Of a DNA stretch of 64,000 nt, positions 36,017 to 58,490 are shown one piece after another. The stretch is from Marchantia polymorpha subsp. ruderalis (taxonomy: Eukaryota; Streptophyta; Marchantiopsida; Marchantiales; Marchantiaceae), in contig AP031356.1 of the NCBI GenBank assembly GCA_037833965.1, positions 4,176,501 to 4,240,500 on the forward strand, read 5' to 3'. Below the pieces are notes generated by a model. That model made no database searches, had not been told where the DNA came from, and saw nothing but the letters and a program-made list of their open reading frames with translations. Position 1 is the stretch's first letter, and each line of letters starts with the position of its first letter. The position numbers were made by a program, and so were the translations under genes.

Positions 36017-38629
36017 TTGGAAGAAGACAATGGTTGGGAGCTCATGGAAGGAGTAAGAAGCAAGCTCAACTCATTGTCACTGATGGTTTCATGGAAGGAC
36101 ACAAGAGTTTTAATTGATCCTGGAGCAACTGAGAATTTTCTATCAAGTAGTGTTGCTATGAAGTTAGGTTTGATGTTAATGAAGGACGTGAGTGAAAAAG
36201 TTGAATTGCCAAACGGGCAAACTAAAGTGATAGAAACACTACCACGGAGTGTAGAATTATCCATAGGTAGATACAAGGAGAGCATTGAATGGAGAGTAAT
36301 TCGTTTAGCTCAATATGATGTCATACTTGGAATGCCATGGATGGAGCAATATAATCTGAAGGTAGATTGGAGAAGAAAAGTGATTACAAGTAGTGGATGG
36401 AAGATCTATGGAGATAGAATTAGATCTCAGAATAGGAATTTACCCCTCTTTGTGATGGGTACAGCATCCATTTCTAGAGATGATGTATGTTTCCTTGGAC
36501 TTATTAGAGATATTGGGTCCACGGACAAACCTTACATCCCGGAGTCCTTGAATGACATTTTTATGGAATATAAAGATGTTTTTCCAGATGATCTACTTGC
36601 AGGATTACCACCAAAGAGTCGAGTAGATCACAAGATTGAGGTGATACCTGGAAGTACACCAACTTGCAAAGCTCCATATCGTTTGGCTCCAAACGAATTG
36701 GAAAAATGCAAAGCTCAAGTGGAGGAAATGTTGAGCAAGGGATTCATTCAACCAAGTGTTTCATCTTATGGAGCTCTAGTACTCTTTGTGAAGAAGAATG
36801 ATGGATCCATGAAACTATGTATTGATTATCGCGAGTTGAATCAGCAAACGGTGAAAAACAAATATCTATTACCTCGTATGGATGATTTGTTTGATTAACT
36901 TCAAGGAGCGAAGTACTTCACCAAGCTAGATTTGAGAAGCGACTACAATCAAATTCAAACTGTAGATAAAGATGTTCACAAGACAGCTTTTTGTACTAGG
37001 TATGGACACTTAGAGTATCTAGTGATGTCTTTTGGTCTCACTAATGCATCAGCTACATTCATGAGATTAATGAACGATATCTTTCGCCCGTATCTAGATA
37101 AATTTGTCATTGTTTTTCTAGATGATATATTGGTGTATAGCAAAACTTTGAGTGATCATAGAAGTCATTTACGAGAGGTACTTCAAGTTTTAAGACACAA
37201 TCAATTGTATGGCCAAGCTTCAAAATGTGAATTTGGCAAGTCAAAAGTAGATTACTTGGATCATAGAGTTACAACTACATGAATCCAAGTGATGAGTGAG
37301 AAGATAGATGCCATTCAAAAATGGATAGCTCCTGAGGATCAAACTCAATTGAAGAGTTTTCTAGGCCTCACAGGATTCTATTGTAGATTTGTGAAAGGTT
37401 TTGCTCGCCTAGCTCAGGCCTTGACTTCCATGTTAGGGAAAGGCCAAAAATGGAGATGGGGAACAGCTCAAGAGTTAGCTTTTCAAGCATTGAAAGATGT
37501 TTTGTTACACGCATCTATTCTCAAGTGATATGATTCTAACCGTTCTATCAAGTTGGCCACTGACGCATCAAGTACAACAGTAGGTGGCATACTTCAACAA
37601 GAATGGGAGGATGGATGGCATCAAGTTGCATTCTAATCCCGAGAGTTGGTGGCGGCGGAACAAAATTATCACACGACAGAACGGAAGGAGTTAGCCATCG
37701 TGTTGGCAACCAAACATTGGAAGCATTACTTATGTGATAAGGAGTTTGTGGTGGAGACTGATCATAAACCCTTGGTTTATTTGGAAACTCAGAAGAATCT
37801 GTCCAAACGACAAATTTGATGGACAGAGTGGCGTCAACGCTTCAACATGAAGTTTGTGTACGTGGAGGGAAAGAAGCAACTTGCAGATGCTCTCACACGC
37901 ATGCCTTGTTTGAATCATGTTGCAGAAGTGAAAATTCAGGCGGATTGGTGGAGCAAGATGTCACAAGCCACAAAGGAGGATGAAGAGATCACTCGGGCAC
38001 TACAAACTGGAAAGGCAGAGAAATCTTGAGGTTTGGCGTTTTACAATCAGCGTATATGGATTTCACAAGATCACGATTTGCGCACAATGATTTTGGCAGA
38101 AAGTCATGATACAGCCATTGCAGGTCATGTGGGAGTGGAGAAAACCGTGGAGAGTATACAACGAGTGTACTATTGGCCCAAAATACGTGAGGATGTGGAA
38201 TCTTATGTTCGAAGTTGTGTTGCTTGTCCACAAAACAAGGCAAGTAATCAAAAACCAGCGGGTTTATTACAACCTCTTCCTATTCCCGAACAACGGTGGG
38301 AACATGTCACCATGGATCTTGTATGTGAGTTACCAAGGACTTCGTTAGTACATGATTCAGTGGTGGTTTTTGTGGACAAATTGAGCAAGATGATTCACAT
38401 CAGGCCAACCACAAAAATAGGATCAGCTCCACAACTAGCTCAATTGTATCTAGATGCAGTTTTTGTGAATCATGGCTTAAGCAAAGTGTTAATCATGGAT
38501 AGAGGTAATCACTTCACTAGTTTATTTTGGAAAACTTTGTTTAGTTTTTTCAAAACAAAATTAGCAATGTCAACTGTCTATCACCCTCAAACTGATGGAC
38601 AAACTGAGAGGGCAAATAGAACTATATAG
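36017..38629 (+). pseudogene. Chromovirus pol: protease, RT, RNase H, integrase start
   Basis: Protease: [14 protein letters not shown] near residue 32 of the frame at 36017 (the usual D-S/T-G is D-P-G). [42 protein letters not shown], and FLDDILVYS with both catalytic Asp kept (36932-37282). RNase H: LATDASSTTVGGILQQ near 37552, and VETDHKPLVYL. Integrase: HHCC finger from HDTAIAGHVG to CVACPQNK, core Asp in MDLVCELP, MDRGNHFTS, and Glu in TDGQTERANRT (38033-38629). Stops near 36896, 37280, 37526, 37637, 37817, 38027 and 38627. Confidence 0.92.
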
Positions 38630-38632
38630 GAT

Positions 38633-39391
38633 ATGCTAAGATCATTCACATTTGAAGAGCAAGAAGAGTGGTACAACCTTTTGCAACTTGTGGAATTTGC
38701 ATATAACAATTCTGTTAATGCATCCACAAAAGTGTCTTCATTTTTTCTTATGTATGGAGCTCATCCTATAACTCCTTCAAGTTTGATGAGACTTCCCAAA
38801 GGAGAGGAGTTTTTGATCAAAGTTGCAGCAGTCAACGAATTTGTGGAGCATATTCACCGAGGACTACATCGGGCCAAGGAGAAGTTGGTAATAGCTCAAA
38901 ATCGGCAAAAGCAGCATGCCGATGCTCATCGTAGAGAAGTGGTTTTTGAGGTTGGAGATCATGTTTGGTTATCTACAAAGAATTTGTCTCTTGTAGGAAC
39001 ACCAAACTTGAACCGTAGGTTCATTGGTCCATTTTTGGTTTTGAAGCGTGTTGGTGAAGTGTCATACAAGTTGGAACTTCCGTCACATATGAAAATACAT
39101 CCAGTATTTCATGTGTCACAATTGCGAAAACATGTACCACGACCAAAACAATTCACCAACCAACCAGCACCACCTCCTCTTCCAACCTTGATAACATATC
39201 ATGAAGAGTTTGAGGTAGAAAAGATACTCAAGAAACGTATTGAGGTCATAAATATCCCAAAGTAGAGTATTTGATTCAATAAAAAGGCTATCCATCGTAT
39301 GAATCAACTTGGGAACGAGCTAAAAATTTAGCAAATGCACCTTTGATAGTTCAGGAGTTTGAACGTATGTGCAACGATGACGTTGCATCTT
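38633..39391 (+). pseudogene. Chromovirus integrase C-terminus and chromodomain
   Basis: The frame 38633-39265 carries the integrase end: WYNLLQLVEFAYNNS, GDHVWLSTKNLSL, IGPFLVLKRVGEVSYKLELP, and IHPVFHVSQLRKH. It leads into a chromodomain: FEVEKILKKRIEV. After a frameshift near 39260 come EYLIQ, stop, KGYPSYESTWERAKNLANAP (tryptophan codon lost), and a C-terminal EFER. A C-terminal chromodomain targets chromovirus integration to marked chromatin (family knowledge). Confidence 0.88.
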
Positions 39392-43559: not shown

Positions 43560-44640
43560 GGTTAGGGTTTATACATGTTACTCTTTATGCTGCATTGACA
43601 TTCAGTGTGTGCAATTTATTCTTTGAGAAGCAAATAACTTGGAGCAAAGGGGAAACTTAGAAGAATCCAACTTCCACAATTCAAACGAGACTCATATTCC
43701 ATGGAGAGCACAACAGTGGACAGGTGGCAGTGAAGATGCTCGTATTAAATCTTCGTCACAGTTACCGCAGCGTTGTCGTTGCCGGTCAAGGGGGGACGGG
43801 GGCGCACTTCAAATTCTGCTCTCCACCCGTTGCCGCGCCCGGTGTACTTACTGTGGGGGGGAGAGTGCCTGTTGCAGAGTGATTAGCGAAGAAAAGTCGA
43901 GGTCAAGGAGTAATTGGGGAAAAGGAGAAAATAGCATATGCGATTCGCTGCGCTGCGCTCCCTGGCTATGGACTGGACGGGGTCGGGGGCTGGGGCTGGG
44001 GCTGCATGTCCGAGAGCGTAGCGACGGAGGGAGGGCAGGGGGAGGGGGGAAGGAGGAAGAGAATTTACGAAGGGAGAGAGGGGGAATGACGCCCAGGAGG
44101 AGTGAGGCAGTGGAGGTCGTCTTGTCCGTGCAGCCATGCCTGCTGGTGCTAGTTGTCCGGCGCAGGGTCAGAAACTTCTAAGGGAGGTAATGAGAGCAGA
44201 GACGAAAGCCCGCCATCGCCAAGAAAGAATGAGTTAAAATGTCGAGGGAATACGGAGGATTGACAGGCAGTAAGAGGCGCAGACGGAAGGGTTGTGAGGC
44301 GAGGGGAGCAGTCGAGGGTTGACATCTGATGGAGGAACTTGCAGGTGGTCGTAACTGAGTGGGGGAAATTTCGGACGAGGAGTGGAGTCCTCGATCGGGG
44401 GAATCTTTTCCGAAGAAGCTCCACGAGCTCGAGTTTCGTGCAGCACAGGTGTTCGAGGTCGCGGTGTATCGGGATTAATGTGGGGGAAATTCCATGTCGG
44501 GAACATGAACATCCTTGGAGCTGAAAGAGGAGGCGGAAGACTTGTCAGGGTATTTCAGAGTGAGATTTGGGGAGAGGCAGGAGCGTGCGAGAGAGCTGGC
44601 CTAAGGAAGTGAGCGAGGGTTTAGGTACTTCCCGCAATAA
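43560..44640 (+). promoter_or_regulatory. GC-rich promoter / 5' leader of EBS/SHL gene
   Basis: Base composition jumps to G/C-rich (most clearly 43,780-44,600) between A/T-rich spacer and the gene, as in a plant promoter and leader. A telo-box in reverse (TAGGGTTT, 43563-43570) opens it. Long frames here (for example 43639-44181, +, and others on both strands) have compositional rather than domain content. The transcription start cannot be placed. Confidence 0.45.
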
Positions 44641-45047
44641 ATTATGAGTCTTTATGTAGGTTTCGCCTTTAGAACAAAGAACAGCTGCGTCGTTGGGCGG
44701 CAGAGTAGATGTGCACAGCTCAGTAGCGAAGCTGGAGTTGATTTCAAAAGTCGTGACTCGAAGGCGTAGTATCACCTGGAGCCGCGAGGGTAAGAGTCAT
44801 CTAAACGAAATCTTGCACACTTGCTGTGCTATACTTCTTCACTGCAAGGAACCCGAGCTTAGATACAGAGATATGGGGAAACTTAGAAGTTATAAGCCGG
44901 CTGATAATTGCAGTTTCTTATATCCTTTATTAAGAGAGTTCTTGCGATTTTGCACATGCTGAAGTCTAACTCTACCGGCCTGGGTTTAATCAGACCGGCG
45001 ACTGAGCTAGCAGATTATAAGTTCTTTAAAATTATTACGGCGTGGAA
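44641..45047 (+). other. Putative 5' UTR of EBS/SHL gene
   Basis: No coding signal. An in-frame TAA at 45027-45029 sits 18 bases before the ATG at 45048, which fixes the start of the protein. The ATG context is GAAATGG (purine at -3, G at +4). Confidence 0.5.
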
Positions 45048-45120
45048 ATGGCGAAATCGAAGAACGCAAAGAAAGTTCTGGATTCGTATACTGTGAAGGG
45101 TACCCACAAGATTGTAAAAG
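45048..45120 (+). other. EBS/SHL: EBS/SHL exon 1 (coding part)
   Basis: Encodes [20 protein letters not shown] and then KIVK plus one base. Donor AAAG|GTAAGG. It matches the conserved basic N-terminus with LDSYT.KGT. Intron 1 is 45121-45649. Confidence 0.92.
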
Positions 45121-48100
45121 GTAAGGAACGCTTGACCGTCAGCGTTCAAACTCAAAGAAGTCAGTTTTGCACGTAGAAGCTAAAGCTTATCCGAGAGTTA
45201 CGTCGATTGACGGACAGTCTTGTCTCATATGGGAAGAAAGAAAACTGTTCAGTCGCTTGGATATGTGTAATATCAGCCGAAATATTTTTTTTGGAATTTA
45301 AATGAAAGATTATGCTCAACTCATTTTTTGTGTTTTTCGCTGGGATCACTTTCCATCTTAGCTAGATTTGCCAACTTCTAGCCCAATATGAATGAATCGG
45401 TAAGAAGATAGTGGATGGAGTACATTCTACGCAAGTTTATGTTGATGTTATAACAGGTTTATCTGCTGTCCTGGCCAAGTGACATAGAGAATACAGTGGA
45501 CTTAGTTGGGGTACACCTCATCCGGTCCTGTCGTGCGGCGATTTTAGTCTACTCATATCTTTCTCTCCTGTGGCTATTGAAGTGAAAGTGAACCCATGAT
45601 GCAACAGAAATCTAAACGAGTGGTAACATTTGGCTCTTGTTGAATGCAGCGGGTGATTGTGTATTGATGCGTGCGCAAGATTCAGATAAACCCCCTTATG
45701 TCGCAAAGATTGAGAAAATTGAATCCGATAGTCGGAGTAATGTGAAAGTGAGGGTTCGTTGGTATTATCGTCCCGAAGAGTCAATGGGCGGTCGTCGTCA
45801 ATTTCATGGTGCAAAGGAGTTGTTTCTCTCGGATCATTATGATATCCAGAGTGCCGATACTATCGAAGGGAAGTGTATAGTGCACACTTTTAAGAATTAC
45901 ACCAAGTTGGAAAGCGTGGGTACTGACGATTACTTCTGCCGGTTTGAATATAAGGCTTCCACGGGAGGTTTTACACCTGACAGGGTGGCTGTGTAAGTCT
46001 ACTTCACTTTCCCTTGTTTACTTCTGGTGTGATCCATATCATTCTTTTATCCTTCGTCGCTCAATTCTGTTGATGCAAAATATCTCGAGGATGGTAGTCT
46101 ATTTGTGCTGTAAGTTTGTTCATCTTTTCAAAACCAGGATTGTAATGCAGAGATTATCTGTTTGAACTTGAGGTTAGAAGATGTATGATGTGGTGAATAC
46201 CATAATTGTTTCTATGTGGTTGTATGTCTTCCTTTTCTATAATGTCTCATACCACAAGATTTGAGAGTTTCATACGAGTCTACTAGAAAAATGATAGCAG
46301 CTTACAAAAAGTAATGAGCAGCATATGTGGAAATAACGTCATGTTAATCGTATAGCTTTGTGGGATAATATTATGTGAATAATTTTGTCTGTCGACAGTT
46401 GTTTTGAAAAAGCAATTGTTTGAAAATAGTTCTAAACGGGAAGACTTCATGTAAATGAAAACCTCTCATATAGTCTAATGATCATACAAGGAATGATCAC
46501 ATCTATCATGATATGATTTATTGTCTATACATGGTTGATAAACAACTGCATATTTAGGTTCTTTGTTAATCTCAGAGAACCTAATTCCAAACCATCTAAT
46601 TAGTTAGAGGGGCCAAGCATCCATGATTTCACACTCTCACTGAATACCTATATTTCTGTCGGATGTTTGATGACAGTAGTCCTTTACGTAGCAATGAAGA
46701 CAAGATTAACTTTTTATTAGTCAAACTAACACCATTTACTATCTAAACAACATTTTTTATAATGTATTCATCCCACATACCATCGTTCTTTTCATGATGA
46801 GATACAGTTTCCTTTCAAGCTTTACGATTTCTAGAGCACATCAATGTTTAATTTTAATAAAACATGATGGATTCTTATACTATATGTGATCATCAATGTA
46901 GGTTTTCTCTTCGTACAGTTCAAAGCTAGAGTAATTCTTTTACTGAATTCTGATAGAATATGATGTATATTTACAATTCAAAGCTAATGTTGATTGCGAT
47001 GATAAAGACTGCGATGAAAGACTATTATGATGCGAAGCTAACTATTTCTCCCCACAGTCTACCATGTTGTGCTAAACGCAAGATTTAGCGATATTTTTTT
47101 TCAATATATTGATTACATGTCCAGTTTTGACTTCTCATCATGATGTCCTTACAAAATCACGTTTACCGATCCTAATTCAAATACTTGTTGGAATCATAGC
47201 TGACTACCAATCTGTTGTATCTCATACTCCATATTGATCAAGAGATAATGCAGTAAGCACATAGCTTCTAGTCCACTGATACAGTAGTTTGTATATGATT
47301 ATTCAGCTCTTTTGTTATACGGAAAGTAACGTATGAAGTAGATGTTTTAGATAGCGGAGGAGAAATTACATAGTGAACTTTGCTACTTTAGCTTCAATTA
47401 CTCGAAGTACAATTTATCAGTCATTGTTAGACACGGTTCAAACTACGTAGGACTCGTCACTAGACTTAAAATTATTCTGTAGTTATTATTAGAATGGAGA
47501 CTCAAATCACTTTGGTTTGAGTCATTTTAAGACTTAAGAGTCAAATCACGTTGGTATCGCGTTCTCAACGTAGCAGTACCAACTCATATAATCATATTCT
47601 CTCCTCACAATAAAGGTCTTATTTTAGAATGTATGATCTCTCCTACGTTAATCTCCATATATCTCACCCAACTATTATGTTTTAGTTTCTTCTTGTTAGT
47701 CTTTTGTTGTTAGTTGCTAGGTAGGTGTACCGATGAGTTATTATGTAACTGTTAGTGAAGAAAAATGTTTGGAAGTGTTTGTTAATTTAAGGGTAATCTA
47801 ACGGATCAAATCTGCATCGAAGCTTTGGGTGTTAAAAGAGTTCTCGTCAAATTGATGAATTCCTACATATCATCGCATACTCGAGGTTTTACGGTAAGAA
47901 ATCGGTGGAGATATACATATATATATAGTAGGAATTTTTGAAGGGTATCTAACATAATGTATCTTTGGTTTTCTGTGCAGATATTGCAAGTGTGAGATGC
48001 CATACAATCCGGACGATTTGATGGTTCAGTGCGAGGCGTGTAAGGACTGGTGAGCGATCTATTTTTTCCATTTATTTAGTATGGTCCGTCTACTTCCTTT

Positions 48101-51100
48101 TTTTAAGATAAATTTCAATATCATATCTAGGAATTCGATCTCCAACAATCATGATCAAATTTGTTGATGTAAATGAAGAAAATGAAGAAATGAAGAAATC
48201 CACTTTTGGAAATTTATCTTTGATACGAAGTATTGTATATACATACAAACATCGTTCTTAACTGCTGATGAAGATAAGTTGAAATCGAAATGTGACAAGG
48301 TTGGTTGGAAAATCTTATTCCTATTGATTACAAGATTTTTACACATCTTACTTCCAATGTGTAAAAAGGCTGATTGAGAATGGGAATGAATGTGTAGGAA
48401 AAGAAATTTAATGTGTATAATCATCTCAATTCTTTTAAACCCAACTTGCGAGGTTAGATGACATCTCTATTCAAAGTGATCCAACTCGTTTGTTTTTCCG
48501 GTGTCAGTCTCGTAATGACTTTTACTGTATACACACGAACTCAACTTCATCCTACTTTTACCATGATCTCCAAACTTAATTTTGGTTAAGGTTACCCAAC
48601 CATAAATATCCTCACCTGGAAATAGACAGGGACCTGACGAGTACAATAAACCACACCACTTTATAATCCTTCCCTCATCCCTCCTTTCCAGCATCGCTAT
48701 TTTAGAATATGTAGCTCACAATAACATCAAGCTATAGCTATCTTCAGTAGGAATGATGATAATACTAATAACGTCTTCACTACAAGTACAGAATATCTAA
48801 TGCCTAGTATATTTTACTTACGTTCTGTTCTGCGCCGAAAGTGGTTCCTTCTAGTGTTTTATACTTTAAATTGATTTAGTGTCAATGGAGATTCCCTCCG
48901 ATCTCTGAGTGATATGTCTGCTAAATGGTTGCTTGGTACTGATTGATGTTCCTGCTTGAGACTAACTACTTTTAGTTTCTTGCTGTAGGAGTTATTTTTT
49001 GATTTGAGAGAATCAAATTAAATCAAATTTGAACTTGGCTAGGGAGAATTTGACACAGCAATAACCTCGAATCTACTTGTTGGATTGTGCTTGGAATTGT
49101 GGACCTACGAGTTGCTGCATAGAAATCTATGCAACTATGTATCTACAAACGCTACCTCCTTCCTAATTTCAAATATGGGTATTATCTCGAAGGTCTTTCA
49201 TCATGTTGACATAAATTTTATCAGCGAGATTCATTGATATATGGACTGCTTGTGTCCATATTCCATGGTGGTTATGTTGCTTGTTTTTAGTTGCATGCAA
49301 TTCACTTGTTTTCATTGAGGCTCATTTCTGTTTTTATCACTCGCATGTTGTCGTGCTTATTCTGTAATGACTTATCTCATTGGCACCTTCGATATCCACC
49401 ACTAGAAATTCTGGAATGCTTTGATCCTTTACCACTCTAAGCTACTGATGGCGATGTATACTATGTTATCTATATTGTTCAAATGTTTTATACTCAACCT
49501 CACTCTTAGGCTTAAACGTAACTATTTAATTCGTTTATGTGATATTTGACTACATCATTATATAGTCCATCATGTCATACAATAAGGAACTACTTTTTTA
49601 TATATTTTTTATGTTTCTAACAAGCAAGGTTTCTATCTCACTTCACTCACCTCCTATTTTTTTAGAGATACAAATGCCTCCTATCACCTCGATCCCCTCA
49701 TTACTCGTTTGGATCCCTACTATGGATCCCTGCTACGTATTCTATATGAGAACGCTATCCACGTCCACATTTATATGGAATCCTGCTAAGTCCATCGGAG
49801 TTCTACCTACCTTACCTTGTGATATACTGACTCACTTAAAAGAGTTTAAGCTCTCCCAATCTTTTTTACTTTGAATACTTTGAAGGAGTATGTGACCTGG
49901 AATCCTTCTTGAAAGTCTGGAAAAGGCTTCTACAATCAACCTGCGTCAGACTTTGAAACTACCAAACTTGGAAATGCACATATATGATATGTGAGTTTAG
50001 ACCACATCAGTTTATAATCCTCTAGAACAAGGATTAGGGTATGCAAACTCCCGGTGTCTTTCAATAACCAATCGAAATAGAGCTGAATAGAGGTGCGGCT
50101 CTTAGCGTCTGTGTACCTCCAGCGCCCTCAGCCAGCAGAAACTAACAATCTACCTAGAAGTACATGGATCAAGCATACCTTCCTCATTCATTCAGGTTTT
50201 GGAATGCTTAAGGGCTCGTCTATGGTCTATGGTCTATGGTCTATGGTCATTTCGATGCATATTGCAGGTTTTTTATGTCTTCAGTCCATACTCCTTGGTT
50301 TGTTACTCATCTTATCAACATATTTTCAGTCCCTATGATCAATTATGGATACAGAAGTATGTTACAGCTGTTGTTACGGATTTAGGTTTCAGGATTTCAC
50401 ATGTAACGTATACATACGTTTCACTTGGGTTTATATGCACCTCAGTTTTTACTTTGTCTAGCGGCAGCTACAGTTTTTCTGGTTCAAGGTGTATTATGCA
50501 AGTTTGTTAGTCGATCTTATGTTATCTTTTATTCGAGCCAGCTCATCCAGAATATATCCCAACCATTGTAAAAAACTTGGTATTGTTCTCGCTCTGAGGT
50601 CGTAGGTGTACACATTCATGCAGTGTGCGTTAATTTTGTATGTGTGGTTTCAAGTGCTAGTCTATATTATGGCGTAGACTCTGAAGTTTCCTTGCTGTTT
50701 GTATGCTTTTTACTCTGCATGTTTGTATGGTGTTTCCAATGGGTGACACTCCACTTGAATTTCCAATTATACTATACATTCCCTTTTTTTCTACATAGGT
50801 AGATGTTGGCAATGTCTGACATAGTTGCGTGCTTGGAGTTATTTTCATCCTCACGCGGTGCAGGACTCAAATCTATTTATCTCGGTTTGTAGATGAAGCA
50901 GATCTATGAGGGAGAGTTCCGCTTCTCATTTCAATATGGTTGACGATACTTTCTTGTGTCTGAATAACATTGCCTTAATCATTTGTCATGAGTCAATGTC
51001 ATGCTTGTTCTTTTGCCGGTTTTGTGGTCTTCTTCTTAATTCTTATTATTCTCCAACATCATTTCTTCGTCACAGTTGGTACTTACCCTCCAGTCCTGAC

Positions 51101-54100
51101 GTTTTTGTTCACTAACATATTACACAATCTGGTTGATTGTGTAACGAAGGTTGAAAGCGATCGCCCGGATAAGACTCCTAACCTAAAGCGGACCGAATTT
51201 ATTCATCAAAAAATCGTTTATCAAAAAAAAGGGAAGGACTTGGTATAACCATCTTATCCACTTCAAAGGGACCGGACATAAAATGAAAACTCTGGTTCCT
51301 ATCTTTGACCCTGTTTCTATCTTTAGCATTTAATTCCTGGAAACATTATTCTCCCTGCGTGTGTCAAAATATTATGGTAGAGAAACTCCTGATCTGTTTT
51401 AACAACTATAGTAATGCTTTCTTGTAGTTTAGAGGGTTGACAGGTTCTTAATGTTCCTGCCTGCGGGAAATTAGCAAAAACTTCATTAGAACCTCGTTTT
51501 AATCACCCACTTTACCATCTGATCCTTGCTGTAACCTAAATTTTTAGGGAGACATTACATTTTACTATAATTGTACCTCGTCAAAATTTTGTAGATATTT
51601 CTCATCCAACCAGCTATATGCGATTTCAGAAAAACTCAGCAAGCTTTGTCTATCGAAAGAAATATTTGTCAATCTCAGAATTGAAACGGCTCGGAAGCAG
51701 TAAATAAATGAATAGAAACAAGTTTGTGATACAGAAATGGTAATAGTAATAGAAACAGAAATAGCTTTCCGGTAGTACAAACTATTTTTCTGCAATGGGT
51801 GAATGTATCTGCTGATACTGAAAATGTCCAAGAGGGGAAGACTCAACACCTCAAGTGACAAGGTTAGAGAGTGGTGTACACAGGTTGAGAAATGATTCGA
51901 AGTCAGGAGCAGCAGGTCGATTCTTATAAGTAGGAACAGTTAGAGAGTTTTTAAATGGGTTCTGCATTCTTATCAATGAGCGAAGTCAAGCGTCAAGGAA
52001 TGATCATCTAATTCTCCAAGTTACTAGTAATAATCAACGTTAGGTTAGCCTTTTTTTTCTTATCAAGTTCATAAAATAGCAACATATGAAAGGTATGTTA
52101 TGAGCCTTTCATATGTTGCTGTGAGACTAAATGTATAATCTCAATGGGTTTTAATTATAACTTTGTACACTACCAACTGTGTGTTACATATAGGGATTAT
52201 AATCTATGCCTAGGTCCCCTTGATGGAATACATATTCGATGTCAATTGAAAGTGTGTATATCAATCGTTGTACCATAAATTTATATCTGGAGATGCCCGT
52301 CACAATCCATCTTCTTTGGATGGTGTTTTCAGTAAGAGTATTTATCCCTCTTATTCATGTTAAATACTACGCTAAATACGGACGTAGAGTTCTTGACATA
52401 CCATTTTCTCATAGCTTCGAAAGTGTAAGTGAGTATCTTCACTTAGCTACGCTCACTATTGTTTTTGTTGGTGTGTTCGGCTGAGTGTCATATCTTATAT
52501 TTCGATAATTTGGAATCGTTGTGCAAAATGTTTGGATTCCCGAAGGCTGAGAATGTAGCTATGACGCTAACTTGCAATTAGCGAGAATGTAGCCATGAAG
52601 TTTTCACTCTATAGAATATACTCACAGCAACCACTGTGGAATGCACAGTGGTTGCTGTGGTTATGTAACATCGTCACCACACCATGGTCTTATTTTGTAA
52701 TTTTATGGTCACCATTAAAGTTACAAAGGTCCTGGAGGACATATTTTTGCTAGATTTGCAGGAATACACTTATTGCCTGCTTTGCTTTTCAGGAACTATG
52801 GCACAAACTCCTTTCTGACCAGATCGCATCTTCAGATGGAAACTTACAATTGGTACGATCGGATTAAGAGTATTTAAAAGTGACATTGATGCCTAAAGAT
52901 CTGAGTATCCCATATTCTGAAGGTGCTTGGACATGGTTTGAATGCTGTAAATAAGTAGAGCAACCTTATTAGGCAATGAGACATCAGGAACTCAAAGAGA
53001 CAAAGGATGGCTTCAGCTTAGTCGTTATTTGTGTAAAAATGAGTTATTATATCAAATTCTGAGAGATAAGAAATACAAAGAGGTTCTTACTTTTCATATT
53101 TTATTCTCAAGATCCTTTCCCATCATGGTTTTCTCTAGTTATGAGATAATTGGATTTGATTATCAACTACCAATCTCAAGATGAAGTTAGGGTAGATATG
53201 TGACTTGCTTCTTCTTGTTCAGAAAATATTTGAATGAACTCAAATGTCTTACTTTCTCCTACCGAAATTTCATCTTCTCACTGTGGCCCTCATAGCGGGC
53301 CACAGTGAGATAAAACATTCCCTTGAGCCTTGGTAATATGAGTTTGTATATGATACAGTAGTTCCCTGAGAGCAACAATGTATGACAGCGAGTCTGGTAA
53401 GTGCTGATATTCCCATACACGAGCAGCACAAACTGCTTGTCACGGTATTGTTATGGTTGATATTAACTTCAATCACTTCTTTTCTAACGTAGTTTATAGT
53501 AAGATCTTGTAGTTTGAAACCACATCTGGTTTCTGGCTTATGGAACAATAGTTTCTTACGCAATATAATTGATATTTGTAACACTTTGGAATACCTAACA
53601 TGTAAACAACCTGATAAGGCCATACTTTCATGAGCCCTATATGGAAGGAGTTCCTCAGTTGTCCCTAACCACCTTCAAACATGACAGTTGACCTATAAAA
53701 TTATAAAATCCTCGTCTTACAGAAGTGAGAAGCAGCAAATAGTCCGGTGAACTTTACCAAAGTTTTTTATTGCTCTTAGTTCCTCCCTGCACTGTACCGT
53801 CTGGACACCCCTGTTCCGCTGCTACAATTACTCCACTCATTGTTCGTTTTTATAAACCCTAAGTTTTCACGCGCACTTGTTACACGAAACCTGAATTCCG
53901 AATTCATTGAGTTAAGTTCTTCGTATTATCCTTGAGCATGGGAATTATTTGATGTAAGAGCCGAGGCCAAAAAAAATTTTATGAGTCTATCACTGAAAAT
54001 ACATGTACATATGCTAGGGAAGATAATTATCTACATGAAGAAATTCATTCATGTGGGAAATCCATCAACTGAAATATACATCACATGCAATGTTGGGTTA

Positions 54101-56682
54101 GACTATATGGAGGCGTACATTCAACTTGAGTTCCTTGATAAACAACTGCAATGAGAAATCTACCATGTAGTCTAGATTTCTCAGGACGCAGTATATTGAG
54201 GTTGAGAATGCAACCACGCGATACGTTAGATTCGTCGTAGATTCTGACGATGTTTTGTAGTTGTTAAACCTCAAATGGAACAAGGGAAATATCTTCCAGA
54301 GTTCTGCGTAAGCCCGACACTGCTTGGGAGCACGATGTTGTATTAATGACGATCTCCTGATTGATTATTTACACACATCCTAGCCTGGCTATTGAGGTCA
54401 TGTCTTATTTTCTTTTCCTGGATCCAAGAGTGACTTAGCGTGATCGTTAGCAATTGAAATGTACAGAAGGGTTGCCTTGATTCTGGTTTCCCATACTGAT
54501 ACCAGAGTAGTTCCCGGATGTAGCATAGAACTATTCTGCTGAGAGGTGAGTTTTGACAGATCTAAAGAACTTCGCTATCGCCATATTGCTGGCATATAGC
54601 AGTGGTATTCACTGCCCTATTCGGAGAGAAACGAGGAATTCATATCTCATTTTCCTAGGTTCATACTTAAGTAATCTAGATTCAGAGGTCTTCTTATTTT
54701 CACAGTTGCCCGTAGTAATACATCCCTCATTTGGAAAGCCTATGAGGCTGTCATTGTGCTGCAAACTGGTTCACAGAGCATGTGGCGGCCGGCTCGAACT
54801 TCCCAGTTCCTTAATTCCAAGGGCCTTAACACTTTTATGTAGACAAATAAATAATGCTGATAAGCTTAAATGTTTTGCGAATGCAGGTTTCACTCCTACT
54901 GTGTGGAACTGAGCACAGAGCAGGTAACCAACCTGGACAAATACTTCTGTGCAGGCTGTTCTCCTGACAACCACAAAAGGGGGAATGCATCATTTAAGTC
55001 AACCCACCCTGAAGCTAAGGTATGCTTTCAGATACGGATTGCTAATTCATATATTTCTCTTCTGCAGGTTCCACCCCACATGTATGAATTTTACTGCAGA
55101 GCAGGTAAAAAAGATGGAACAGTTTTATTGTCCTGATTGCTCCTCCCAACTTGGTCAAGGTGACAAGAAATCGCGCAACACGCATAAATCGTCCCCACAG
55201 CATGAACTAAAGGTATGCATCATGTTTTGCTGCTCCTCTTGCAGCTGCAGCAACACTGTTTGCTGTATCTCTAAATTGAGGACATTTGGGTTTCGTAGAA
55301 ACTTGAATGCAATCAACTCACTACCCTTCCGTGAATCTTCTTGGTTCATCTTAGCCTTCTCTGCAATTCAACCCATTTAGTCCAGCTTGATGGGTTGAGT
55401 TTGCAGTATGCCACTTTGTCTCCACAAGTTGCTCTTCACACACGCGGCTCATGTGGTTTGTTGGCCTGATTGCCTGATTGAGGACCTTGTAGACTGAGCA
55501 GTCTCCTTCTGTACCATCAAAAGCATCCCGCATCAAGTTTGACAGATGCCATCCTGCATTTCATGCACATTGCTCGGCTCATCTTGCCAACCAGACATAT
55601 TAGCTTCATCACGCCTGATTCCACGTTGCGTGGACAACTGTGGTCTCATATTTTGCTGTATTTTTTGATAATTCATGGTACCGAGTTACAGACATATGTA
55701 TCATGGTACATTGCTCCATTGATACACTCAGTTCTATCGATGAGATGATGCCTCTTTCTTTATCAACATAATGTGCGAAAAGCGCTACAGCAACTGATGA
55801 ATTCTATTCAACACACAATACTCGCAGTCATGGGTGCAAAAGTTGCATTCATCATTTTCTTGCAATCCCTTTTTATCTTCTGCCAATTCAGAGAACCTCA
55901 GAAAATACCTCAAAACTCCTTACGTGTGTCTTCTTGGTCTCTTTATCAATTCCATCTAATCCGAACTTCTAAGGGAGGAAAAATGTTCAAAAGGGTCTTG
56001 ATGGATAGCACATGCAAGAGTGAGTGTCACTACAGTATCCTGATAAATGTTCCTTTTGAGGAACATCAATGATTCTCTTCTTTGTGCGTGGATCTGAACA
56101 TCGCATTGTGTCCACAAATAATGAATTTGGAAAGATAGATTTAATGAAATCTGCACTTACGGGAATATCACTTTATGGACAAAGCAATACCAATTCTAAC
56201 GCCTCACGCATGAATAAATTCTCGCGTGAGGCGTTAGAATTGGGAATGCTTATTATGTTCCGTGATCATTCTTTTCTCATCTAAGTTCACCTGAAAAAAA
56301 GCATGCATGGACTAGTTGCTGGAAAGCGAAATGGAGTCACTTGATGTAGTTTGGTCAAATTGTGTAAACGTGGGATCTGTACTCCAGATTGCAATACGAC
56401 TAGTGTCCATTTGTTATGTGCTTTGATTGTTCTTGTTTCATAAACGTTATTGACCCTAGAAAAAACGATGCACCTATTTTTTGCTGGAATGGAGCTTTTT
56501 TGTTCTGAACTTTGCTTATCGCTTTGAGATAGTGAATATGAGTATCTTGATTCCGAGTCACCTGTTTGAAATGGTCCGTTTGTGTACTCCCATGAAGCAT
56601 CAATGTTCAGCCAGATTTGAGGGCTGAGTTTCTATTTATTTTGTCTCTTGTGCAGCCTGAATCTAAACGGCGGAAGAGGTGA
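45048..56682 (+). CDS. EBS/SHL: EBS/SHL-type BAH-PHD histone reader
   Basis: Exons: 45048-45120, 45650-45992, 47981-48049, then either 54887-55019 (4a) or 55068-55212 (4b), then 56656-56682. All joints are GT-AG and keep frame. The products are 214 (4a) or 218 (4b) residues, close to the usual ~225-235 for the family. Residues 1-24 are basic. A BAH domain (about 25-138) has [20 protein letters not shown] and ELFLSDHYD, with the aromatic WYY of the H3K27me3 pocket. A PHD finger (about 139-168) has four Cys in exon 3 and His-Cys plus Cys-x2-Cys in exon 4. The tail ends ESKRRKR, a likely nuclear signal. In Arabidopsis, EBS and SHL read H3K27me3 and H3K4me2/3 and repress flowering genes (established). 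Here the role is inferred from homology. EBS and SHL cannot be told apart. Introns 2 and 3 (2.0 and 6.8 kb) are long. Confidence 0.93.
45650..45992 (+). other. EBS/SHL: EBS/SHL exon 2 (BAH domain)
   Basis: Acceptor GAATGCAG|CGGG, donor GGCTGT|GTAAGT. The whole BAH domain lies in one 343-nt exon, from [20 protein letters not shown] to [11 protein letters not shown], with no stop or frameshift. Very strongly conserved for the family. Confidence 0.95.
45993..47980 (+). other. EBS/SHL intron 2
   Basis: 1,988 bp, GT...AG (TTTTCTGTGCAG at the acceptor), A/T-rich. No embedded element or second gene is recognised. Confidence 0.85.
47981..48049 (+). other. EBS/SHL: EBS/SHL exon 3 (first half of PHD finger)
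   Basis: 69 nt encoding [20 protein letters not shown] and then KDW (W split by the splice). It holds zinc ligands Cys1-Cys4 and the aromatic and acidic residues that in EBS/SHL contact methylated H3K4. Ends in phase 2 (TG|G), so the next exon must begin with one base of the Trp codon. Confidence 0.95.
50221..50248 (+). repeat. TATGGTC x4 microsatellite
   Basis: Four exact tandem copies of a 7-bp unit within intron 3. Confidence 0.9.
52078..52120. repeat. Hairpin, 16-bp stem
   Basis: AGCAACATATGAAAGG (52078-52093) with its exact complement at 52105-52120, loop of 11. Also in the right arm at 60206-60248. Confidence 0.9.
52623..52659. repeat. Hairpin, 16-bp stem
   Basis: CACAGCAACCACTGTG (52623-52638) with its exact complement at 52644-52659, loop of 5. 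Also in the right arm at 59665-59701. Confidence 0.9.
53276..53310. repeat. Hairpin, 14-bp stem
   Basis: TCTCACTGTGGCCC (53276-53289) with its exact complement at 53297-53310, loop of 7. The right-arm copy (about 59010-59046) has lost perfect pairing. Confidence 0.9.
54887..55019 (+). other. EBS/SHL: EBS/SHL exon 4a (alternative second half of PHD)
   Basis: 133 nt, acceptor GAATGCAG|GTTTC, donor GCTAAG|GTATGC. It completes W and encodes [24 protein letters not shown], and a tail [19 protein letters not shown]. All four remaining zinc ligands (His, Cys, Cys, Cys) are kept at the spacing of 4b, although the rest is only about 40% identical to 4b. It starts in phase 2 and ends in phase 0, like 4b. 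Preservation of ligands, splice sites and frame argues that it is used rather than a dead duplicate. Confidence 0.85.
55020..55067 (+). other. 48-bp spacer/intron between exons 4a and 4b
   Basis: Starts GTATGC and ends CTTCTGCAG, with a branch-like GCTAATTC whose A is about 22 bases from the acceptor and 25 from the donor. That is shorter than plant introns normally tolerate, so 4a-to-4b splicing should be sterically blocked (inference from known minimum intron size). Confidence 0.75.
55068..55212 (+). other. EBS/SHL: EBS/SHL exon 4b (alternative second half of PHD)
   Basis: 145 nt, acceptor TTCTGCAG|GTTCC, donor CTAAAG|GTATGC. Encodes [24 protein letters not shown], and a tail [28 protein letters not shown] is the usual sequence of the family, so 4b looks like the ancestral exon. 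The tail after the last Cys differs completely from 4a in sequence and is 4 residues longer. Confidence 0.92.
55213..56655 (+). other. EBS/SHL intron 4
   Basis: 1,443 bp. Contains the 20-bp hairpin at 56190-56243. Small frames inside have no recognised domain. Acceptor CTTGTGCAG|CCTGAA. Confidence 0.85.
56190..56243. repeat. Hairpin, 20-bp perfect stem
   Basis: CCAATTCTAACGCCTCACGC (56190-56209) with its exact complement at 56224-56243, loop of 14 (A/T-rich). It lies in intron 4 and would form in the pre-mRNA. Confidence 0.92.
56656..56682 (+). other. EBS/SHL: EBS/SHL terminal coding exon
   Basis: Encodes PESKRRKR and TGA, joined in phase 0 to either 4a or 4b. The basic end is a likely nuclear localisation signal and is typical of the family. 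Confidence 0.88.
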
Positions 56683-58490
56683 GCAAGGTGGAGCCGTTCT
56701 TGGACCAAGCACTTCCAGTCTTTTGATATCCCATCTGACAACATCGGAGTTCATATTCTATCTAAATGGATTGATGAGACGACAACGTAAGGAGAATTCA
56801 TCTCCTGCATGATCCTAAGCGAGGGTGGTATATCTACCCTTATGGTAGATATACCCGCAGTCTTAGTCTTTTGTACCTTTGGGTCCAAAGATAGTGAATC
56901 GGAAGACACTAGCTTATAATGATGGGGCTGATCAAACCTGTGTTGGTGTTTCTGAAATACATTGGCAACTACTGCCAAGGACTGCACAAACTCTTGCCAC
57001 ATTGATGCAGAGTTTGTATTAGGAGGTGGAGTTAATCCTGTAGAACTCTGCAAAATGGCTGTTTTGTATGAGATCAAGAGATTGATTACTTATTTCCAAG
57101 TGTACAACAATCCTCAAGGTTCATAGCTCCTCCGAGCCTTGCATGCAAGCCTGTTCGGACCTTGCCTGTGAGGAATATGCCTGCTAACTGGAACTTCACC
57201 GGGTCGACATGGACATGTTGCAAATCTTGTTGTCAATAGTTTGTACCCAGGGGTTGATCTGATGTGTTTTGACATTTTGTAAGAAACCAAGTCAAGGACA
57301 TCTAGAAGCAATCTAGTTCTAAAGGGGCAATCCAATTTTGCCAATATTGTGCATAATTGTAGAGCTCTGATACAGAGGACTGCTCTATGGCGAGCAGACA
57401 TAGTTGATGGGTGTATGAGATGCGCAGTGTAGTTGACTGGATGGTTGGGTAAATTTCCCGTCATCCAAAGATAAGTGATGTGGAATGGACAAAGTTTTAG
57501 CTGTGTATAAGTTGATTCTCGGAATAATTTGCACTGTGGATGGTTTCTTTCGCGTTCTTTCTATCAAGCTGGCCAGATTACTGTAGTGTTCTTTCGATTA
57601 TAACTGAGTTAGGTATGCGGTCTTGTAGTTTATAGCATGAGCACGTCAAGTCGGGATAATACTAGAGATCTTTCGGGAAATATTCCCACGTAGAAAGTCG
57701 TAAATCTTTCGCAATGTTCATGTTTTACTTGGGCATCGGACAGGAGTGTCTGACTCCCTAGTGAACTATAATACAAGTGTGAGATGTCGAGTCCCATTGA
57801 ACATCTGGATCCTCTCCACGATCCGGAATAGCATTTCAGGTGGAGATCCCATGTGTCGGAGTATGTTGAGGACTTGAGGAATAACGATTAACTAAAGTAA
57901 CAAGGCGTTCTTATTTCTGTTTGTGTCATGAAGCGGTAATTTTGACGACGAGGGAATTTATGACTTTCCAAACCTGTTGATTCTAGGGATGCTTGTGAGG
58001 ATCCCTTGAACCCCAAGGCGTGCTGTGAGATTTACATGCACGCCTTGGGGCAGCTGTCAACAGAGCACAAGTTGTATGCTAATTAATGGATTTTACGCAA
58101 CATGCCAAACGCAGAAGAAAGGGAGCACTTGACTAGTTCCCGTTAAATACAAACAAGGCGAAGAGGGTTTGTATGCGGCTAGAACGAAGCAAAGTACGAA
58201 GGATCCGACATACTGGATGGCTGGGATATGACATTCGGTCAACCGGTTAATTAGAAGAGAAACGGGTAATTACCTGTTTCTCATTGAACTCAATCTCAAT
58301 GACAGAAAGATAAATCTTTCAACGACTAGTAGACGACTCGTGTAGGACGAGTATGTTTATTGCAAACTAATCTAATGATTTTCATATTTCTATTTGCTTT
58401 TGTAAACTCATGGCGTCCCTGTTCGTAAAAAGAAAACTTTTTCGTTGGTGTCCATACATTCGAGTAGGCCCTAATCCTGCTCAGATAAGT
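56683..58490 (+). other. 3' UTR and downstream spacer
   Basis: No gene recognised. Minus frames at 56751-57077 and 57114-57464 have no domain. Hairpins: 56827-56855 (12-bp stem GGTATATCTACC, loop 5), 58011-58050 (13-bp stem CCCCAAGGCGTGC), and 58257-58282 (13-bp stem with one G-T pair, no loop). The poly(A) site was not placed. Confidence 0.5.

Follow-up and report, generated by a model that had tools for sequence, protein, structure and literature searches.

Can a single histone-reader gene offer two alternative second halves for the same PHD finger and, if so, can one mRNA carry both? This question is raised by a gene on the plus strand of the 64,000-nt stretch of Marchantia polymorpha subsp. 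ruderalis DNA analyzed here (the window), in which two similar exons, 4a and 4b, lie side by side. We consider it likely that 4a and 4b are an old homologous pair, alternatively used, in one EBS/SHL-type histone reader.

Anatomy of an EBS/SHL-type gene with two versions of exon 4

Matches to solved structures and Pfam domains agreed with the first-pass annotation, which had called the gene an EBS/SHL histone reader. The best solved relatives were EBS (5z8l) and SHL (5znp), with E ~1e-103, and the 4a isoform aligned end to end with Populus SHL 5znp (E 8e-103). Pfam recognized an N-terminal BAH domain (90.6 bits, above the cut-off) and a C-terminal PHD finger, which scored 34.1 bits in the 4a isoform and 36.7 bits in the 4b isoform (both above the cut-off of 24). 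The protein has 214 aa with 4a and 218 aa with 4b; EBS/SHL readers have about 220 aa. Binding to H3K27me3 and H3K4me2/3 is expected of EBS/SHL readers and is predicted for the Marchantia protein.

Exon 1 (45048..45120), with the start codon, matches the annotated protein P0042, and exon 2 (45650..45992) encodes most of the BAH domain. Exon 3 (47981..48049) encodes the first half of the PHD finger, including Y140, Y147 and, apart from its third base, the W162 codon. A branch-point-like CTGAT (54857..54861, identified by motif match) lies upstream of exon 4a (54887..55019, 133 nt), 26 nt separating its A from the acceptor. A gap of 48 nt (55020..55067) then separates the 4a donor from the acceptor of exon 4b (55068..55212, 145 nt), and exon 5 (56656..56682) encodes PESKRRKR and the stop codon. 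By translation, both versions of exon 4 encode a second PHD half and a tail, of the HSYC type in 4a and of the HPxC type, like that of other land plants, in 4b.

Each version is preceded by a TGCAG acceptor and followed by the same AAG/GTATGC donor. The Trp codon, split TG/G, can be finished by either exon 4 after exon 3, both end in phase 0, and the zinc ligands (His, Cys, Cys-x2-Cys) are kept in 4a as in 4b. When 4a and 4b are included together, 4b is read in another frame and reaches a TGA (55134..55136) 76 nt before the junction of 4b with exon 5. Retention of the 48-nt gap leads to the same TGA, and omission of both exons also shifts the frame. Within the 64-kb window, 4a and 4b matched each other with E ~1e-4, the next-best other match had E 0.34, and no third exon 4 was seen. 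The coordinates, lengths, phases, splice sites, zinc ligands and frame shifts described by the first-pass annotation all held when checked against the sequence and its translation. 4a and 4b are homologous neighbors at the same place and in the same phase, with a full reading frame from either but not from both or none. Mutually exclusive use, as predicted from this arrangement, is the best reading.

It had also been claimed that only about 25 bases lie between the donor and the branch point, and that the gap is too short for ordinary plant splicing. Of the two branch-point motif matches located in the gap, CTAAT (55042..55046) is the better one; its A lies 26 nt from the donor, in line with that estimate, and the acceptor follows 22 nt later. 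In the cited part of an Arabidopsis study, the smallest verified introns were 59 bp long, two introns of this length being confirmed out of 30 predictions of 31-59 bp put to the test (PMC6161759). For the vertebrate OGDH exons 4a/4b, the cited passages place the branch points at donor distances of 25-41 nt and propose a minimum of ~50 nt (PMC7969005). The Marchantia gap of 48 nt, with its motif-based donor-to-branch-point distance of 26 nt, falls below both 59 bp (Arabidopsis) and ~50 nt (animals), although these limits may not be those of Marchantia. Joint inclusion of 4a and 4b would thus be blocked sterically, as a 48-nt gap with a branch point ~26 nt from the donor would be too short for the spliceosome, and both exons in one transcript are probably not possible. 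Any leaked joining of 4a to 4b would lead to the early stop.

Predicted effect of the swap on the PHD finger

The H3K4me3 cage of PtSHL is described in the cited passage as Tyr141, Tyr148 and Trp163 (PMC6013494). In the alignment to 5znp, these residues correspond to Marchantia Y140, Y147 and W162, which are encoded by exon 3 except for the last base of the W162 codon, a G in both versions of exon 4. The swap therefore spares the methyl-lysine cage, and the changes fall in the second zinc half, in the helix and in the tail. Of the earlier proposal that the swap alters the edge of the PHD pocket and the whole tail, the part concerning the second PHD half and the tail stands, but the methyl-lysine pocket has to be taken out. 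With the pocket still in place, the expected effect of the swap is a tuning of the second PHD half and the tail. The second half of a PHD finger anchors H3A1. For EBS, the part of the source cited reports that H3K4me3 binding is inhibited by a proline-rich region at the C terminus (PMC13361950), so a swap of the tail could matter.

Structure models of two relatives, P0015 (4a type) and P0002 (4b type), had mean pLDDT values of 72.6 and 74.7 and disordered tails, and their best matches were EBS and SHL structures. These models, which are of relatives and not of Marchantia's own proteins and are of modest confidence, suggest that the 4a-type half is compatible with the PHD fold.

We propose that 4a or 4b would supply the second zinc half and the tail, and that both isoforms would share the same BAH domain, H3K4me3 cage and basic C-terminal end. 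Exon 4b is probably the default version, with a better polypyrimidine tract (13 of 17 positions at -20..-4) and the ordinary land-plant sequence. Exon 4a, with a weak tract (8 of 17), is probably regulated and would depend on activation by some factor or condition. In the 4a isoform, binding to H3K27me3 and methylated H3K4 would be retained, but peptide anchoring, the surface for partners and the tail would be different.

Relatives and age of the exon pair

Relatives were collected from three protein searches (the best 120 of 756, of 367 and of 846 matches), giving 190 distinct proteins. An FHxxC-x15-CxxC core is present in 189 of the 190 listed, the exception being P0042. Four of these 189 have a 4a-type core: P0015 (Sphagnum troendelagicum), P0033 (S. 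fallax) and the JGI proteins P0121 and P0170. The first-pass annotation had suggested a search of related genomes for a second exon 4; a 4a-type exon was found in four of the 190 proteins listed. The 4b type is represented by P0080 (S. fallax) and by proteins from Ceratodon, Physcomitrium, Calypogeia and M. paleacea. Pro follows the His ligand in 184 of the 185 other proteins listed and in none of the four 4a-type proteins, and Lys is found in the helix of 173/185 vs 0/4. Lys before Tyr/Phe shows the reverse (3/185 vs 4/4). The Marchantia 4a peptide is 60% identical over 45 aa to a Sphagnum protein (E 4e-18, 182 proteins searched). The occurrence of 4a-type exons in Sphagnum points to long-term constraint on 4a.

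In S. fallax, the 4a-type and 4b-type proteins found are products of two separate genes (locus tags 08G058400 and 03G061900, respectively), and the tandem pair was seen here in Marchantia alone. M. paleacea (P0001) and Calypogeia (P0002) were represented only by the 4b type among the matches listed. The P0001 model reads DCGFHP instead of the expected DWFHP and loses the cage Trp, probably through a misplaced splice site. P0121 has a complete reading frame on a 1019-base contig and is probably a spliced transcript, an intronless gene being the alternative.

In the exon-4 tree (54 columns), Marchantia 4a joined the four 4a-type relatives in a clade of 5 rows with support of 96/84. A reduced tree (46 columns), which omits the exon 5 part and four long or short rows (P0170, one Diphasiastrum row and two rows from paralogues on contig C5), supported the 4a-type clade (4 rows) with 100/99. 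The tree of the BAH domain and exon 3 put the Marchantia BAH among liverworts (99/98) and recovered the Sphagnum 4a-type proteins in a group with mosses (92/83). Because Marchantia 4a groups with the Sphagnum 4a type in the exon tree, and the Sphagnum BAH groups with mosses, the pair probably predates the liverwort-moss split, and 4a is not a local duplicate. That split took place over 400 million years ago. The simplest account would be that the exon was duplicated in tandem before mosses and liverworts diverged.

Topology tests rejected an exon-4 duplication limited to Marchantia (p 0.006 in the full tree and 0.023 in the reduced tree) and one limited to liverworts (p 0.006 and 0.023). A single BAH clade of Marchantia and the Sphagnum 4a-type proteins was also rejected (p 0.007). 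Grouping every moss exon 4 in one clade was not rejected (p 0.076 in the full tree and 0.060 in the reduced tree). The proposed dN/dS comparison of 4a with 4b gave dN 0.38 over 26 codons and an undefined dS, and it is unusable because dS is saturated.

Further BAH-PHD sequences were found in the genome searched (9 contigs, 241 Mb). Two adjacent intronless genes on the 24.57-Mb contig C5, L004 (1321-2058) and L005 (1324-2064), encode proteins of 245 and 246 aa that stop directly after the PHD finger and have long branches in the BAH tree. Considered as retrocopies of a 4a mRNA, their PHD half grouped with the 4a type at only 87/77, and its grouping with liverwort 4b was not rejected (p 0.125); as evidence for such an mRNA, they would prove nothing. 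Two more diverged intronless BAH-PHD-like ORFs, L006 (1465-2061) and L007 (1435-2298, minus strand), encode 198 and 287 aa. The intron that leads from 4b to exon 5 contains a hairpin (56190..56243, plus strand) with a perfect 20-bp stem and a 14-nt loop. A 121-nt stretch around it folds with -52.7 kcal/mol (z -10.2, 0/200 shuffles as good), and at up to 2 mismatches the only genome matches of the hairpin are its own two arms. No Rfam match was found within 44000..58000. The hairpin is possibly a young miRNA-like precursor or a mobile-element remnant. ORFs at 36017..39265 are presumably parts of an LTR retrotransposon polyprotein, which they resemble.

Exon use and competing explanations

The only protein named M. 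polymorpha among the matches listed is P0042 (subsp. ruderalis, 213 aa), which is identical letter for letter to exons 1-2-3-5, contains neither 4a nor 4b, and has no PHD finger in Pfam. It speaks against exclusive use, and thus against the expectation of the first-pass annotation that each mRNA should hold one of the two exons and no other number. Neither a 4a- nor a 4b-containing M. polymorpha protein was among these matches (190 distinct proteins). The tail of P0042 is an out-of-frame reading of exon 5 and the 3' UTR, with its stop codon (56810..56812) in the last exon, a position from which nonsense-mediated decay is not expected. A predictor would hardly choose such a path without transcript evidence, so a BAH-only form produced by the double skip may be real. 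In any case, a public M. polymorpha protein without the PHD finger would mislead domain surveys and knock-out design.

One could go further and take this BAH-only protein, reading H3K27me3 without a PHD finger, as the main product, with 4a and 4b rare or particular to certain tissues. The exact identity of P0042, the position of its stop codon and the frame-shifted path itself argue for this, but a gene model is no proof of abundance, the tail reads exon 5 and the 3' UTR out of frame, and close relatives have a whole PHD finger; we find it quite improbable. It also seems unlikely that 4b is the sole working exon 4 in Marchantia and that 4a, although old, is no longer spliced in and is decaying. 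The weak polypyrimidine tract of 4a, the 4b type of the M. paleacea and Calypogeia proteins found and the lack of a 4a-containing M. polymorpha protein among the matches listed would fit such a decay. However, 4a has an intact frame, all its zinc ligands, good splice-site cores and clear identity to Sphagnum, which so long a decay would have erased, and 4b is missing from the listed M. polymorpha matches as well.

A different origin for the pair would be a whole-gene duplication before the moss-liverwort split that made both types, followed in Marchantia by recombination of a 4a-type exon into the 4b gene. The two S. fallax types do sit in two genes, and a BAH clade of liverworts and the Sphagnum 4a-type proteins was not rejected (p 0.148). 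Against this, the Sphagnum 4a-type BAH groups with mosses and not with the Marchantia BAH alone, and the matching phases and 48-nt spacing are explained more simply by tandem exon duplication, which leaves this origin very improbable. We therefore keep to an old tandem pair of alternatively used exons. More tentatively, and with considerable doubt, three states set by splicing (PHD with 4a, PHD with 4b and BAH-only) may have been kept since before mosses and liverworts parted. The BAH-only state would read H3K27me3 without H3K4 methylation, and splicing rather than gene duplication would set the reading of Polycomb chromatin by tissue or life phase, some mosses having later split the versions between two genes.

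Comparison with known systems

The first-pass annotation knew of no isoform switch of this kind in the EBS/SHL family, and our literature searches likewise found no account of such an exon pair there. Mutually exclusive tandem exons as such are known; what is new is a 4a-type exon common to Marchantia and Sphagnum. Either-or exons are rare in plants: the cited passages count 11 of them among 2442 splicing events with peptide support in Arabidopsis proteome data (PMC13136898) and give 0.0% of splicing events for one moss (PMC10464054). A pair common to a liverwort and a moss, if true, would count as very old for plants, and it would affect a chromatin reader in a genetically easy model plant.

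With Arabidopsis EBS (5z8l/5z8n) and Populus SHL (5znp/5znr), the Marchantia protein shares the BAH-PHD architecture, length and cage residues. It differs in that two exon versions of the second PHD half and tail are present, whereas the cited passages describe one PHD finger per gene for EBS/SHL. In alpha-tropomyosin, mutually exclusive use of tandem exons is enforced by a short intron or an early branch point. Vertebrate OGDH 4a/4b are also homologous neighbors with an early branch point (25-41 nt in the passages cited, compared with 26 nt by motif in Marchantia) (PMC7969005). Unlike OGDH and alpha-tropomyosin, the Marchantia case concerns a plant gene, has a whole gap of 48 nt, and its exclusive exon use is a prediction. 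Arabidopsis FLM/MAF1, likewise a regulator of plant development, has two exons of which one or the other is used, which changes an interaction surface, and the cited part of that study describes the MAF1 3' exon as recent and limited to MAF1-3 (PMC3266260). In contrast to that recent pair, the Marchantia pair appears older than the moss-liverwort split and would swap half a zinc finger.
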